From: Natrinema sp. HArc-T2
Lineage (GTDB): Archaea > Halobacteriota > Halobacteria > Halobacteriales > Natrialbaceae
Direction of reading: 5' to 3'
NCBI RefSeq assembly: GCF_041821085.1
Contig: NZ_JBGUAZ010000004.1
Span: 1-64,000 of the forward strand
DNA: 64,000 nt
Shown here: positions 8,266 to 13,445 of the stretch, piece after piece
How the letters are laid out: each line of letters begins with the position of its first letter
How positions within the stretch are numbered: the first letter of the stretch is position 1
Program-made: the position numbers and the translations under genes
Notes under the pieces: generated by a model
What the model saw: the letters and a program-made list of their open reading frames with translations, nothing else
Database searches by the model: none
Told to the model about the DNA's origin: nothing

Positions 8266-8416
8266 GGGCGCGTAGCTCAGTGGACAGAGTCCTTGGTTCC
8301 GGACCAAGATGTCGGGGGTGAGCAGGCCCGACGGGCCTACGATTTATGCTGACACTGCCCGCGCAGCGAAGCGAGCAGGAAGTATTAGTAGTAGTTTAAA
8401 TTCCACTTACGCCCCG
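8266..8416 (+). tRNA. tRNA-Arg(CCG)-like sequence, interrupted or truncated
   Basis: Bases 8266-8318 form a convincing 5' part: acceptor strand GGGCGCG, a D-arm, and anticodon stem CTTGG/CCAAG around loop TTCCGGA, giving anticodon CCG. After variable-loop-like ATGTC and GGGGG the expected T-loop is absent. Instead a hairpin-forming stretch follows (GTCGGG..CCCGAC), then about 70 unrelated bases. A T-loop/acceptor-like end (TTTAAAT ... ACGCCCC) appears at about 8397-8415 but pairs poorly with the 5' part. It could be a truncated pseudogene, an attachment-site relic or a gene with a non-canonical intron. Functional status is doubtful. Confidence 0.4.
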
Positions 8417-8527: not shown

Positions 8528-8551
8528 GACACACCACTGTTGCAAGTGAAG
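8528..8551 (-). other. ORB-like repeat (upstream, inverted orientation)
   Basis: On the minus strand this reads CTTCACTTGCAACAGTGGTG followed by TGTC, matching the repeats around the cdc6 gene. Its orientation is opposite to the copy at 8752, so the two flank the AT-rich stretch. A run of nine G lies at 8567-8575. Confidence 0.6.
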
Positions 8552-8751
8552 CTGCAGGACGCGATAGGGGGGGGGAGGTGTGCCCCTCCGATGACTCGAG
8601 CCACGCGATCCCGATGAGACGCCGTGAGCAGTTGACGGTCGTGTAACGGTCGATTTTACCCTGATAATCCAGAATATATTATTCTTATTATCTGTCAGTG
8701 CTTTAGACGAAACCGTGGACTGTTCACTCTAGCACCCTCACTAGACTAGTC

Positions 8752-8774
8752 TTCACATGAAACAGTGGTGTGTG
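8752..8774 (+). other. ORB-like repeat (upstream, direct)
   Basis: TTCACATGAAACAGTGGTGT followed by GTG. The same motif recurs at 10279, 10363, 10428 and 10460 downstream of cdc6. An adjacent imperfect dyad at 8778-8804 (CACTTG..CAAGTG) extends the site. Confidence 0.65.
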
Positions 8775-8805
8775 TGAGTTCACTTGCATCAGATGAACAA
8801 GTGGC

Positions 8806-8813
8806 TTTAAATA
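8806..8813 (+). promoter_or_regulatory. TATA box of orc1/cdc6 gene
   Basis: TTTAAATA is centred about 27 nt before the ATG at 8836 and only a few bases before the in-frame ATG at 8818. This makes 8836 the likely leaderless start. Confidence 0.65.
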
Positions 8814-8835
8814 GAGTATGTCGCTTGGTACGGAT

Positions 8836-10062
8836 ATGCCTCGGTTCGAGCGGAAGCAGAACATCTTCCGGAACAAGGACGCCCTGGGGGAGTCGTACCA
8901 GCCCGAACGGATCGAAGAGCGCGACGACGAGATCGAGGCGTATATGGATGCGCTCCAGCCCATCATCGACGGCTGGGAGCCGAACAACATCTTTCTCTAC
9001 GGAAATACGGGCGTCGGCAAGACCGCCGTCACGGACTACCTCCTCGACGTCCTTCAGGAAGACGTCACGAGATACGACGACGTCGACCTCTCTGTGCTCA
9101 GTGTCAACTGCAAGACGCTCAACTCGTCGTATCAGGTCGCCGTCGAACTGGTCAACACGCTTCGACCCGCCGGTGCCGAGATCAGCACGACCGGCTACCC
9201 CCAACAGACCGTCTTCAAGAAACTCTACAGCGAACTCGAGGCACTCGGCGGCACGGTCGTCATCGTCTTAGACGAGATCGACTCGATCGGCGACCGCGAC
9301 GAACTGCTGTACGAACTCCCGCGGGCACGCTCAAATGGCTATCTCGAGGCGACGAAAGTCGGTCTCATCGGCATCAGCAACGACTTCAAGTTCCGCGAAC
9401 AGCTCGATCCCCGCGTCCAGGACACGCTCTGTGAGCGCGAACTCCAGTTTCCACCCTACGAGGCGTCCGAACTGACGAACATCCTCGAGTCACGGGCCGA
9501 GGTTGCGATCGCGGACGACAGCTGTGACGACGGCGTCCTGAACCTCTGTGCAGCACTCGCCGCACGCGACAGCGGGAGCGCCCGGCAGGCGCTTGATCTG
9601 CTCCGGCTGGCGGGGGAAGTCGCGGAGAACAACGACGACGAGGAGATTCAGGAATACCACGTCGATCAGGCACGCTCGAAACTCGAGCAGGAACGCGTCG
9701 AAGAGGGAATGCGGGAACTGACGACCCACGGTCGCCTCGCCTTGCTGGCGGTCGTCTCGAAAGCCGCCAAGGAGTCGACGCCCTGTCGAACGCGGGAACT
9801 CTACCAGGAGTACGAGGCGTTGTGTGAGTCGGCGGGGACCGACTCGCTCGCCCAGCGATCGGTGCACAACCACCTCTCCGATCTCCGGATGCTCGGCATC
9901 CTCTCGGCAAAGGAAAACCGCAGCGGGTCTCGAGGCAACTACTACAGTTACGAACTCGACGTCCCGTTTACGAGCGCCGTCGACGCGATGGCCGACGTCC
10001 TCTATCTCGACGCGGAGATCGAGACGATCCGCGACATCGCACGGATGAACGGCGTCGTCTGA
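8836..10062 (+). CDS. Orc1/Cdc6 family replication initiator
   Basis: AAA+ origin-recognition ATPase that binds ORB repeats and loads MCM. 408 aa from the preferred start MPRFERKQNIFRNKD; a longer in-frame start at 8818 would precede the expected transcription start. Walker A GNTGVGKTA and Walker B VIVLDEID are intact, followed by the sensor region (GISNDFKFREQLDP) and a C-terminal winged helix (about 300-400) that includes LTTHGRLALLAVV and QRSVHNHLSDLRMLGILS. ORB-like repeats lie on both sides. Haloarchaea carry many paralogues, so no numbered symbol is given. The stop codon overlaps palindromic copy L. Confidence 0.93.
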   Translation: MPRFERKQNIFRNKDALGESYQPERIEERDDEIEAYMDALQPIIDGWEPNNIFLYGNTGVGKTAVTDYLLDVLQEDVTRYDDVDLSVLSVNCKTLNSSYQVAVELVNTLRPAGAEISTTGYPQQTVFKKLYSELEALGGTVVIVLDEIDSIGDRDELLYELPRARSNGYLEATKVGLIGISNDFKFREQLDPRVQDTLCERELQFPPYEASELTNILESRAEVAIADDSCDDGVLNLCAALAARDSGSARQALDLLRLAGEVAENNDDEEIQEYHVDQARSKLEQERVEEGMRELTTHGRLALLAVVSKAAKESTPCRTRELYQEYEALCESAGTDSLAQRSVHNHLSDLRMLGILSAKENRSGSRGNYYSYELDVPFTSAVDAMADVLYLDAEIETIRDIARMNGVV

Positions 10063-10146
10063 GACGGACGCCGCTCCGTGGGCACCGGGGGGTCCGCGAC
10101 CACCCAGCGGGTGTGCCAGACACCTGTCACAGCAGCCAGTCTGCAG
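10060..10146. repeat. 85-bp palindromic element, copy L (diverged)
   Basis: It begins with the cdc6 stop codon (TGAGACGGACG..) and ends CTGTCACAGCAGCCAGTCTG. The length (87 bp) and terminal motifs fit the family, but the inner part is GGGCACC..GGTGTGCC. Diverged, so assignment is moderate. Confidence 0.55.
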
Positions 10147-10730
10147 CGATCGGTCGCACTCTCACACAGAGCGAGTCCGCCCACACCACCCTTGCGAGTG
10201 AACGCCGGTCGGCACGACGTGACTCACAGGACCACGCCGGGTCCGAATCGGTTCACGTGACTCAGTGCTGACACGTGTTTCACTTGCACGAGTGGTGGCA
10301 CCCGTCGCGCAGTACGTGCGATCCGGTCGTCAGATCGATTCCGCCCCTCGAGTCGGCGTGTGTTCACATGCAATAGTGGTGTCCGGTGGGGATGGCCTCG
10401 GATCGAACCAGCTACCAGTGTGATCCGTTCACATGAAACGGTGGTGTGTCGCTACCCAGTTCACTTGAATCGGTGGTGTGAGTCTAGCGACGGTCGGGAC
10501 CCACGAGCCGAACCTGATACTGCCCGATGAGTGCCCGTAAGCACCTAATCGTGCCTCGACGCCAGTAGCAGCTGGCAACGACATCTCGAGTACGATCGGT
10601 AGAACCCTGCTGTCCGGCAATATGAACGAACAGTTCCCGATCGAACCGTCCCCACTGGCTCGAGTCGACCGCGCTTGCCGCTCGTTTTATCCCCTCGTCG
10701 GCACAATGACAGCAGTATTGACAGTCATCG
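10063..10730. other. Candidate replication origin, right side
   Basis: 668 bp without a gene between cdc6 and the HNH nuclease. It carries palindromic copy L and four direct ORB-like repeats at 10279, 10363, 10428 and 10460. A TATA-like CGTTTTATCC near 10683-10690 probably serves the downstream nuclease gene. Confidence 0.6.
10279..10482 (+). other. Four direct ORB-like repeats downstream of cdc6
   Basis: TTCACTTGCACGAGTGGTGG (10279), TTCACATGCAATAGTGGTGT (10363), TTCACATGAAACGGTGGTGT (10428) and TTCACTTGAATCGGTGGTGT (10460). The consensus is TTCACWTGMAWNRGTGGTGT. All are in the same orientation and share that orientation with the copy at 8752. Spacings are 84, 65 and 32 bp. Confidence 0.72.
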
Positions 10731-12164
10731 ATGGGACGAGAAAAGCGCAACATCGCGGTCCGGTTTTTCGGCGGCGCGGGGAACTACACGACCGTTCTCG
10801 AGCAACTCTGCACGTTCGTTCTCACAGAGAACCCGACCGAAACGGCAGTCCTCGAGTGGTGTCGATCGAACACACGGGCGACGAGTGATGACGGCATCCG
10901 ACGTCGCCTGACATTTCTCGAGGGAATCGGCCTCCTCGCGATCGATCCGGATCGCGTTCGACTCACCCAGCGTGGCATGGCGTGGCTCTCGGAGACCGAT
11001 CCGGCGGTGCTCTACGAACGGCTCTCGGACACCGTCCGCGGCTTCGAGACGATGCTCAAGGCGCTGCTCGATGGTCCGAAGACGGACGCTGAGTTAGGGA
11101 CGGCGATCGCGACCGCCCATTCCGAGGTCAACTGGACTGACGCGTCCGGCCCCGCCCAACATCGGGGCTGGCTGCAGAGTCTCGGCTACGTCGAACGCTC
11201 CGACGGCGTGAACTCGCTGACGAACAGCGGCCGGGAACTGGCACGGCGACAGACCTCGACGTATCCAGTTCTCGAGCGGGGCGCGTCGTACACACAGCCC
11301 GACCTCGAGGACGCCTTCGACACCAGCTTCGGTTCCTACATCAAGGGCATCAATCCGCGAACGAACGACGAGGGAGAGCTCTCGTACATCATCGTCAAAG
11401 CTCGCGAGGACGGCCCTTACGGCGATGAGATCGACGGTGAGCGCTTTACATACATCGGCGAAGGCGTACCCGAGAAAGGCGATCAACAGTTGACCGGTGC
11501 TAACAGCGCGCTCCTCGAGCAGTCAGCGTGCTCGACCATCCCGGTGTACTTCTTTTACCAGCCGGCAGACAGCGATACGCTCCGGTACGAAGGACTGGTC
11601 GACATCGTCGACACCGAGTATGTCGCTCGGGACGACCGGATGGTCTATCAGTTTACCATGGAGACCCTCGAGATCGACCCGGAACGGTTCGAGACGGTCT
11701 CAGAGTCTGTTTCCGGGGAGATCGAGGAAGACGAACCAGCGCTGACCGACGACGAAGACGAGTTCACCGAGGTCCAGCGGCGAGTCCGCTCGAGTTCGTT
11801 CGCGAAGACAGTCGCAGCCGCCTACGACGCCCGGTGTGCCATCTGCGGGGCTGCCCGTGAGTCCCCCGACGGCACCACCGATATCGAGGCTGCACACATC
11901 TATCCCAAACGAGAGAACGGGCGTGATACCGTTCGAAACGGGCTCGCCCTCTGTCGGCTCCATCACTGGGCGTTCGACAGCGGCTGGCTCGCGGTGGCCG
12001 ACGACTATCGGATCCTAGTCGCCGATCGGCCCGATCTCGAGGGGTACGAGGAGTTCGAGTCACTCGAGAACGAGTCACTCACGCTGCCCACGAACGAGGA
12101 ACAGCGGCCACACGCGACATTCCTCGCTGCACATCGCGAACGGCACGGGTTCGAATCGCCATAG
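10731..12164 (+). CDS. Winged-helix / SRA-like / HNH endonuclease (putative modification-dependent restriction enzyme)
   Basis: 477 aa in three parts. Residues 1-190 are helical and winged-helix-like (repeats such as RRRLTFLEGIGLLAIDPDRVRLTQRGMAWL and GWLQSLGYVERSDGVNSLTNSGRELA). Residues about 200-320 resemble the SRA/ScoMcrA-type modified-base reader (GSYIKGINPRTN ... YIGEGVPEKGDQQLTGANSALL). Residues about 360-430 are an HNH nuclease with Cys369, Cys372, His389, Asn403, Cys408, His411 and His412. SRA-HNH proteins in bacteria cut modified DNA; that role here is inferred. The neighbours (origin, convergent nuclease-like gene) suggest an accessory island. Confidence 0.78.
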   Translation: MGREKRNIAVRFFGGAGNYTTVLEQLCTFVLTENPTETAVLEWCRSNTRATSDDGIRRRLTFLEGIGLLAIDPDRVRLTQRGMAWLSETDPAVLYERLSDTVRGFETMLKALLDGPKTDAELGTAIATAHSEVNWTDASGPAQHRGWLQSLGYVERSDGVNSLTNSGRELARRQTSTYPVLERGASYTQPDLEDAFDTSFGSYIKGINPRTNDEGELSYIIVKAREDGPYGDEIDGERFTYIGEGVPEKGDQQLTGANSALLEQSACSTIPVYFFYQPADSDTLRYEGLVDIVDTEYVARDDRMVYQFTMETLEIDPERFETVSESVSGEIEEDEPALTDDEDEFTEVQRRVRSSSFAKTVAAAYDARCAICGAARESPDGTTDIEAAHIYPKRENGRDTVRNGLALCRLHHWAFDSGWLAVADDYRILVADRPDLEGYEEFESLENESLTLPTNEEQRPHATFLAAHRERHGFESP

Positions 12165-12194: not shown

Positions 12195-13445
12195 TCATAC
12201 GGGTTCTCGAAGCGCCCAGACATCCTCGAGTGGCTCGAGCCGGCTGGGCTCTGCCCCACGCTCGGCGAGAATCCCGGTGTGGTACAGCATCGCCTTCAGC
12301 TGGAACACCGTCGGCGAGTGGTAAACAGTGCCGTCCGCGAGCGCCGAGCGCCGCAGGGTGCCGTCGTCGGTCAGGACCCGGCTTCGGACGCCGTCGTCGC
12401 CCCGGATGAACAACTCGACGGTAAAGGACGGATGAAGCTCGTGCAGATACTCGACCGTGTCGACCAGCGACGGCTCCGTGATCCCGTCTTCGAACATCGT
12501 CTGTAGCTCCGTGACCAGCAGTTCGGTCGCGGGATACGCAAAGACCACCCGTCGAGCCAGCCGTCCCCACGCCGGCGCGAGGTCGACGAACCGTTTCGGC
12601 GATCGATACCAGTCCTCGAACGCCGCGAGCGCCGCCTCGACGGTCCCATAGCGTGCCTTCGCAAAGCGGACGACTTCCTCGCCGAGCGAAGTCAGCTCGA
12701 CATCCTCGACACCGACGCCGTCTTCGATCAGCCCCAGAAACGCAGCCCCGCGCCGGGCCGCCGTGACGGCACTCACGACCTTGTACTCCGAAAGCAGGGC
12801 CTCGGTGTCCCCAGCCGCGTAGTGTGCCAGCGGATAGCCGAGGTAGTTCTTGGGGTGGTTCAACCCGAACGACGCGTCCGCGACCCCCTGCGTACTCGCC
12901 TGAAACCGCAGCGCCGTCGCCTCGCTCGTCGTTCGATTGCCGACGACGCGTGGCACCTCGAGCGCCTCGACAGCCCCAGCCGAATCGACGCCGAGCACGC
13001 CGACGTTCAACTCCCGTGCGAGCGTCCGATCGGTTTCGGAAATCGCGGTCGCCGGGGCTGCGAGGTAGGCTGCGTTCGCCTCGTGGAGCCGATCGTAGGC
13101 TTGCACGATCCCACGCTGGGTGTCGACGCCGCCGCTTGCGTGGCCTTTCGCCTCGATGGCGATCAGCGGCGGCTCGTCACCGAGCCGGTCGACGGCCAGC
13201 AGGTCGGACTCGAGAGCGCGTACGCCGACGAGATCCGGGTAGCCGCCACCGATTCGGACGTGGTTGAACGGGGCCAGCCGTTCTCGGATCGTGGGCTCGA
13301 TCGGCTGCCCAGGGAGCCACTCCGCCGTCGCAAACTGGGTGTCGGCGACCGCGTACGCGGTCGCCTCTTCGTCGGCCGGGAAGAGCCGCCGTTTGGTGTG
13401 GGCCAGCACCTGTGGTTCCGTCAGCGGCCCAGCCGCGCTACTCAT
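12195..13445 (-). CDS. PD-(D/E)XK nuclease-like protein of unknown function
   Basis: 416 aa. Residues about 60-165 fit a restriction-endonuclease-like fold: GGGYPDLVGVR supplies Asp71, LIAIEAKG supplies Glu98 and Lys100, and GVDTQRGIVQAYD supplies a Gln110 of the type seen in Mrr-like enzymes, followed by alternating strands (AAYLAAPATAIS, LNVGVLGVD). The remaining 250 residues are mostly helical with possible winged-helix elements (LTSLGEEVVRFAKARYG). It is convergent with the SRA-HNH gene, 30 bp apart. It could be a defence or repair nuclease. No family name recognised. Confidence 0.7.
   Translation of the reverse strand: MSSAAGPLTEPQVLAHTKRRLFPADEEATAYAVADTQFATAEWLPGQPIEPTIRERLAPFNHVRIGGGYPDLVGVRALESDLLAVDRLGDEPPLIAIEAKGHASGGVDTQRGIVQAYDRLHEANAAYLAAPATAISETDRTLARELNVGVLGVDSAGAVEALEVPRVVGNRTTSEATALRFQASTQGVADASFGLNHPKNYLGYPLAHYAAGDTEALLSEYKVVSAVTAARRGAAFLGLIEDGVGVEDVELTSLGEEVVRFAKARYGTVEAALAAFEDWYRSPKRFVDLAPAWGRLARRVVFAYPATELLVTELQTMFEDGITEPSLVDTVEYLHELHPSFTVELFIRGDDGVRSRVLTDDGTLRRSALADGTVYHSPTVFQLKAMLYHTGILAERGAEPSRLEPLEDVWALREPV

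Follow-up and report, generated by a model that had tools for sequence, protein, structure and literature searches.

A haloarchaeal wH-wH-SRA-HNH protein encoded next to orc1, a probable modification-dependent endonuclease

The locus

The window, a stretch of 64,000 nucleotides from Natrinema sp. HArc-T2, carries a gene for a 477 aa protein located between an orc1/cdc6 gene and a conserved haloarchaeal gene. The ORF comprises exactly 10731-12164 on the plus strand and starts with ATG. The features of the region are as follows, with the evidence in brackets:

8529-8773, no strand: two ORB-like repeats in opposite orientations upstream of orc1 (repeat search)
8818-10062, plus: orc1/cdc6 replication initiator, neighbour (TIGR02928, E = 1.8e-140)
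10181-10481, no strand: five ORB-like repeats between orc1 and the nuclease gene (repeat search)
10731-12164, plus: wH-wH-SRA-HNH endonuclease, whole gene, 477 aa (ORF, AlphaFold2, Foldseek, profile search)
10731-11036, plus: first winged helix and linker helix, residues 1-102 (AlphaFold2, Foldseek matches to BpuJI/FokI)
11037-11264, plus: second winged helix, residues 103-178 (AlphaFold2, Foldseek)
11271-11675, plus: SRA (PUA-superfamily) domain, residues 181-315 (phmmer, AlphaFold2/Foldseek, profile search)
11418-11453, plus: SRA pocket Y230, E233, Y241 (equivalent to Tyr55, Asp58, Tyr67 of TagI)
11676-11765, plus: acidic SRA-HNH linker, residues 316-345 (poorly predicted by AlphaFold2)
11766-12161, plus: HNH nuclease, residues 346-477 (Pfam, profile search, alignment)
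12195-13445, minus: gene conserved in haloarchaea, coding for 416 aa with PD-(D/E)XK-like residues (neighbour)

An earlier sequence-only reading had placed the gene beside a replication origin. This is borne out by the neighbouring orc1/cdc6 gene and by the altogether seven ORB-like repeats at 8529-10481, compared to 0-1 matches in shuffles of the whole window. The last repeat ends 249 bp before the nuclease start codon. In addition, a tRNA-like stretch is located at 8266-8339 (plus strand). It scores 29.9 bits with Rfam, just above the threshold, is not called by ARAGORN and could represent a tRNA-Arg that has degenerated or been truncated.

Domain architecture

The domains of the 477 aa protein are arranged in the order wH-wH-SRA-HNH, catalytic and pocket residues are intact and the gene is under purifying selection. 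That the protein contains two winged helices, an SRA domain and a complete HNH domain is as good as certain. The AlphaFold2 model of the whole protein has a mean pLDDT of 84.3.

Residues 1-180 modelled alone with AlphaFold2 reached a pLDDT of 91.7 and are predicted to form two winged helices linked by a helix, in agreement with the N-terminal winged-helix region and the two wHTH-like segments proposed before. Together, the winged helices span about residues 19-175. The first one is composed of helices 19-33, 37-47 and 53-65, a hairpin (69-78) and a further helix (80-88) and is followed by the linker helix (91-101), the second one of helices 105-113, 119-129 and 139-150, a hairpin (154-163) and helix 165-175. 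It includes the family motif HR(E/G)WLQ at residues 144-149. Among solved structures, Foldseek found BpuJI as best match of the pair (2.8e-4) and FokI thereafter (1.3e-3), with a moderate fold likeness (TM 0.49-0.54, normalised to the query). The tandem winged-helix fold is common to the N-terminal module, the recognition domains of BpuJI and FokI, SspB and BrxA of BREX, whereas sequence identity to these proteins amounts to only ~10-18%, and here the pair is fused to an SRA-HNH effector. FokI/BpuJI-like HTH pairs have been described in BrxA and SspB (PMC12839542). The same paper also mentions HNH proteins that carry wHTH and SRA domains at the N-terminus, so the wHTH-SRA-HNH architecture itself is not new.

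None of the curated SRA models matches the 477 aa protein. With phmmer, residues 229-431 match TagI (1.2e-8), and a profile of 54 relatives matches TagI with 3.4e-21 over both SRA and HNH, followed by EcoKMcrA, ScoMcrA and plant SUVH proteins. Foldseek against the PDB yielded TagI first (1.6e-13) and ScoMcrA next; the SRA domain of SUVH5 was matched with a TM of 0.72, normalised to the SUVH5 domain. Thus, the SRA-like reader suggested by the sequence-only reading was recovered both by profile search and by structure prediction with a search against known folds. Three residues of TagI hold the flipped base, Tyr55, Tyr67 and, through its carboxylate, Asp58, the last of which favours modified cytosine; this pocket is used for 5mC/5hmC, and UHRF2 has a Glu at the position of Asp58 (PMC6212794). 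According to our alignment, Y230, E233 and Y241 are the equivalents of Tyr55, Asp58 and Tyr67. Asp or Glu at position 233 together with both tyrosines is present in all 23 aligned members of the clade. Furthermore, the SRA domain is subject to strong purifying selection (dN/dS 0.09-0.24). As the Tyr-acid-Tyr pocket is kept and the SRA domain so strongly selected, we infer that the clade reads modified cytosine. That modified cytosine would be the target, perhaps besides a weak activity on Gm6ATC, has in our view about an even chance; the preference for cytosine is deduced from the pocket.

Pfam HNH_2 matches residues 369-422 with 48.9 bits (cut-off 21). All seven residues that had been named as a complete HNH site (C369, C372, H389, N403, C408, H411 and H412) occur in the protein and are unchanged in the four relatives compared, and the site is intact by sequence. 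C369, C372, C408 and H411 constitute a putative zinc site, H389, N403 and H412 are putative catalytic residues. The latter correspond in the alignment to H296, N310 and H319 of HHPV4I; there, exchange of each for alanine abolished cleavage (PMC10101028). D399 and D416 align with Asp241 and Asp258 of TagI, residues that hold the histidine activating the nucleophile and bind metal (PMC6212794). TagI and the 477 aa protein have in common an SRA domain N-terminal to a C-terminal HNH domain, the folds of both, the Tyr-acid-Tyr pocket and the catalytic and second-shell residues. By contrast, TagI does not have the N-terminal winged helices, and its zinc site contains CxxD instead of CxxH.

HtuIII, HHPV4I and the modified base

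HtuIII, a 496 aa protein encoded on the Haloterrigena turkmenica chromosome (NC_013743), has been described as a PUA-wH-HNH protein that showed mild toxicity (+/-) dependent on Dam and weakly nicked DNA near Gm6ATC (Helbrecht et al., 2024; PMC11037411). Dam-dependent toxicity was strong (+) for NspC1119I (Natrinema, 480 aa) and mild (+/-) for Hsa13891I, and NtiG33I (Natronorubrum, 492 aa) displayed none (PMC11037411). One of our carrier genomes (G181) is H. turkmenica DSM 5511: 4 kb are 100% identical to plasmid NC_013744.1. The sole homologue detected there, a protein of 496 aa encoded on the chromosome-sized contig, shares 71% identity with the 477 aa protein over the whole length. Matched by strain, replicon and length, it is almost certainly HtuIII (WP_012944509.1), and via this homologue the 477 aa protein is almost certainly orthologous to HtuIII. 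Both have the same domain order, wH-wH-SRA-HNH, and are encoded in the same genomic block of two different species, but the H. turkmenica gene is not located beside orc1. Hsa13891I, HsaZ19I, NspC1119I and NtiG33I have similar lengths and are likened to the 477 aa protein by length and organism; NspC1119I and the like are probable orthologues. The published Dam-dependent toxicity or nicking of HtuIII and of probable orthologues supports a nuclease acting on modified DNA, the function suspected before. The list of candidate marks proposed with it (5mC, 5hmC and phosphorothioate) was incomplete, as it omitted N6-methyladenine, the sole mark that has been reported for orthologues.

The HtuIII clade was published as sensing m6A in the manner of DpnI and HHPV4I. 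Activity of orthologues has been published for m6A only, which counts against the reading of modified cytosine, and a modified-cytosine assay of the clade was not found in the passages of PMC11037411 consulted. The main alternative is an m6A-dependent enzyme like HHPV4I: its winged helices would recognise Gm6ATC methylated on both strands, with the SRA domain left as a passive remnant. It is supported by the Dam-dependent toxicity of the three proteins and the weak nicking by HtuIII mentioned above. It is also supported by HHPV4I itself (= HhiV4I, from the pleolipovirus HHPV4), where the SRA domain is dispensable and the wH domain essential (PMC10101028). HHPV4I is reported to be inactive on 5mC and 5hmC.

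However, the winged helices are of a different kind. The middle domain of HHPV4I is DpnI_C (Pfam, 2.2e-16), and its domain order is SRA-wH-HNH. DpnI_C is absent from the 477 aa protein and the H. turkmenica protein and was not detected anywhere in ten orthologue-carrying genomes, H. turkmenica included, while the positive controls of this search (HHPV4, Halogranum and another haloarchaeon) all match. In the alignment, the HHPV4I wH segment with K197, R199 and Q200 corresponds to a gap in both proteins, and the linker at residues 316-345 is too short to accommodate a DpnI-type winged helix like that of HHPV4I. A profile-profile comparison of the N-terminal wH pair with the DpnI-type winged helix yielded a probability of 0.5%, and DpnI is not among the best 50 structural matches of the pair (Foldseek). 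Although SRA and HNH of HHPV4I are ~45% identical to those of the 477 aa protein and the catalytic residues are shared, in HHPV4I a single winged helix of the DpnI type separates SRA from HNH, whereas the 477 aa protein has two unrelated ones in front of its SRA domain. The published PUA-wH-HNH label corresponds to the HHPV4I order and, judged from the protein sequences, is not supported for the HtuIII clade.

The SRA domains differ, too. At the position of E233, HHPV4I has a Ser and its Halogranum relative an Ala. The Ser pocket of HHPV4I is in line with its reported inactivity on 5mC and 5hmC and with the dispensability of its SRA domain. Reading a Ser-type pocket as dead in general was nevertheless rejected, because two SRA-HNH proteins (L012 and L049) keep the Ser and have no other reader. 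The strong purifying selection on the SRA domain of the HtuIII clade and the retained carboxylate, which HHPV4I does not have, argue against a passive remnant. All in all, we consider an m6A-dependent enzyme of the HHPV4I type rather unlikely. As the wH pair is a different one and the modified-cytosine pocket is intact, the published specificity merits a retest with modified cytosine.

The 477 aa protein is mostly of a known kind, a wH/SRA/HNH type IV restriction endonuclease, and this type of fusion has already been published. New are the order wH-wH-SRA-HNH instead of SRA-wH-HNH, the lack of a DpnI-type reader, the BpuJI/FokI-like wH pair and the kept cytosine pocket.

Distribution and selection

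In a sample of 391 haloarchaeal genomes, 20 encode an orthologue over the full length with at least about 71% identity, the genome of HArc-T2 included, and all of them belong to one family. The dN/dS of the whole gene is 0.15-0.24, indicating purifying selection, and 10731-12164 is not a chance ORF. The gene is frameshifted in N. gari (L011) and in one other genome (G092, L045), and remnants were found in four genomes, N-terminal ones in G302 and G143 and C-terminal ones in G005 and G271. These cases could suggest a decaying or non-functional gene. Yet this copy and those of 19 further genomes in the sample are intact, purifying selection acts on the gene and all catalytic residues are kept, so that decay is a very improbable explanation for this copy. 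A search for viral relatives gave no match in IMG/VR; the only annotated archaeal viruses that match are HHPV4 and HHPV3, with <50% identity.

Carriers of an m6A or 5mC reader might avoid the matching methyltransferases. In the genome of HArc-T2, neither PF02086 nor PF00145 was found. Within Natrinema, the Dam-type PF02086 is present in three of ten carriers and three of 11 non-carriers, the C5 methyltransferase PF00145 in three of ten carriers versus eight of 11 non-carriers (p = 0.09). The Dam-type gene is thus similarly frequent in both groups, and the lower frequency of C5 genes in carriers is at most suggestive. It does not hold family-wide, where about half of all carriers have a cytosine-5 methyltransferase gene. 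That carriers are not clearly depleted of C5 genes speaks against modified cytosine as the target.

Phosphorothioate and the replication origin

ScoMcrA (SBD-SRA-HNH), which acts on phosphorothioate and 5hmC DNA, has SRA and HNH in common with the 477 aa protein. A phosphorothioate-dependent enzyme of the ScoMcrA/SprMcrA type could be assumed from the NF045808 match (1.2e-24) and from ScoMcrA as a structural match. This NF045808 match is, however, limited to the HNH part (347-470) and reaches 86.9 bits compared to a cut-off of 180. In addition, the N-terminal half matches BpuJI/FokI instead, and a sulfur-binding domain was not found. For the latter reason, phosphorothioate is an unlikely target and was rejected, and an enzyme of this type appears most improbable. 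The likeness to ScoMcrA noted before holds for SRA and HNH and fails for the remainder.

In Natrinema, the genes follow the order 6PGD, HalOD1, orc1, nuclease and PD-(D/E)XK-like gene, which is interrupted by insertions in some of the species. The nuclease gene adjoins orc1 in most of the Natrinema carriers examined, and this could point to a role in replication or in maintaining the origin. Haloterrigena- and Natronorubrum-like genomes share this block, but without orc1 beside the nuclease gene. Moreover, several Natrinema keep orc1 and have no nuclease gene or only remnants of it; in one of them (G387), orc1 directly precedes the PD-(D/E)XK-like gene. Because related genera have no orc1 there and some Natrinema have lost the nuclease, the adjacency to the origin reflects lineage, not function. 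A functional link between nuclease and orc1 was rejected as lineage-specific, and a replication role has hardly any probability left. The product of the 12195-13445 gene matches nothing in Pfam, NCBIfam or PADLOC. This gene is present in 250 of the 391 genomes, mostly without the nuclease gene, and is therefore regarded as a neighbour, not a partner; a partnership as a general rule was rejected for the same reason.

Proposed function and the winged-helix pair as a shared module

It is highly probable that the 477 aa protein belongs to the modification-dependent nucleases. More specifically, and still likely, it would be a single-chain, NTP-independent type IV modification-dependent endonuclease, in which the SRA domain reads the modified base, the winged helices add context and the HNH domain cuts. 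According to this proposal, a modified base would be flipped out and read by the SRA domain; judging from the pocket, this base is most likely a cytosine derivative. The tandem winged helices would contact the flanking duplex and may contribute sequence context like those of BpuJI and FokI. Nicking or cutting nearby would fall to the C-terminal HNH domains, which probably pair as they do in TagI. The whole would serve protection against foreign DNA. Type IV enzymes determine which modified DNA enters a cell and are numerous in haloarchaea.

The wH pair is not confined to this clade. It is present in 130 of the 391 haloarchaeal genomes and in 54 of 86 genera. In the loci examined, it is fused to SRA-HNH in the own clade and in a second HNH type (L063-L067, L170-L172), to HNH alone (L014, L072, L164, L165) and to an EVE-like domain with HNH (L017 and L166; EVE labelled by eye from motifs). 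It also starts large McrB-like AAA proteins (L056-L062, L160-L163, L168), where an SRA and/or EVE-like domain often follows; the AAA domain of L056 (4118-7747) was confirmed by Pfam. A match to the tandem winged helices lies inside a 900 aa GmrSD/DUF262-like protein (L169, 621-3323, minus strand; GmrSD labelled by eye). In L167 (3186-4763, minus strand), the order is SRA, tandem wH and a PD-(D/E)XK-like nuclease, again labelled by eye from motifs. As all these fusion partners are restriction-type effectors, a targeting role of the wH pair is supported. That the winged helices read sequence, by analogy to BpuJI and FokI, is conceivable but doubtful. Equally tentative is the broader view that the tandem wH might be a shared sequence-context unit for HNH, PD-(D/E)XK, McrB-like and GmrSD-like effectors, combined here with a modified-cytosine SRA domain, m6A being a side activity. 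If this were true, the enzyme would depend on a sequence as well as on a base modification. As a putative targeting module, widespread in haloarchaeal restriction proteins and little characterised, the wH pair is an obvious candidate for structural study.

Some of these loci deserve a remark of their own. L167 has the same two reader modules in a rearranged form together with another nuclease type. The McrB-like AAA proteins of L061 and L062 carry, by sequence, a DpnI-type winged helix, too. On a Halorussus plasmid (L014, 5416-10120), genes for an EVE-like HNH protein, a 370 aa ORF product and a wH-HNH protein are accompanied by a 40% homologue of the PD-(D/E)XK-like gene at 12195-13445, which thus also adjoins a wH-HNH gene there. 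This cluster resembles a small defence island.
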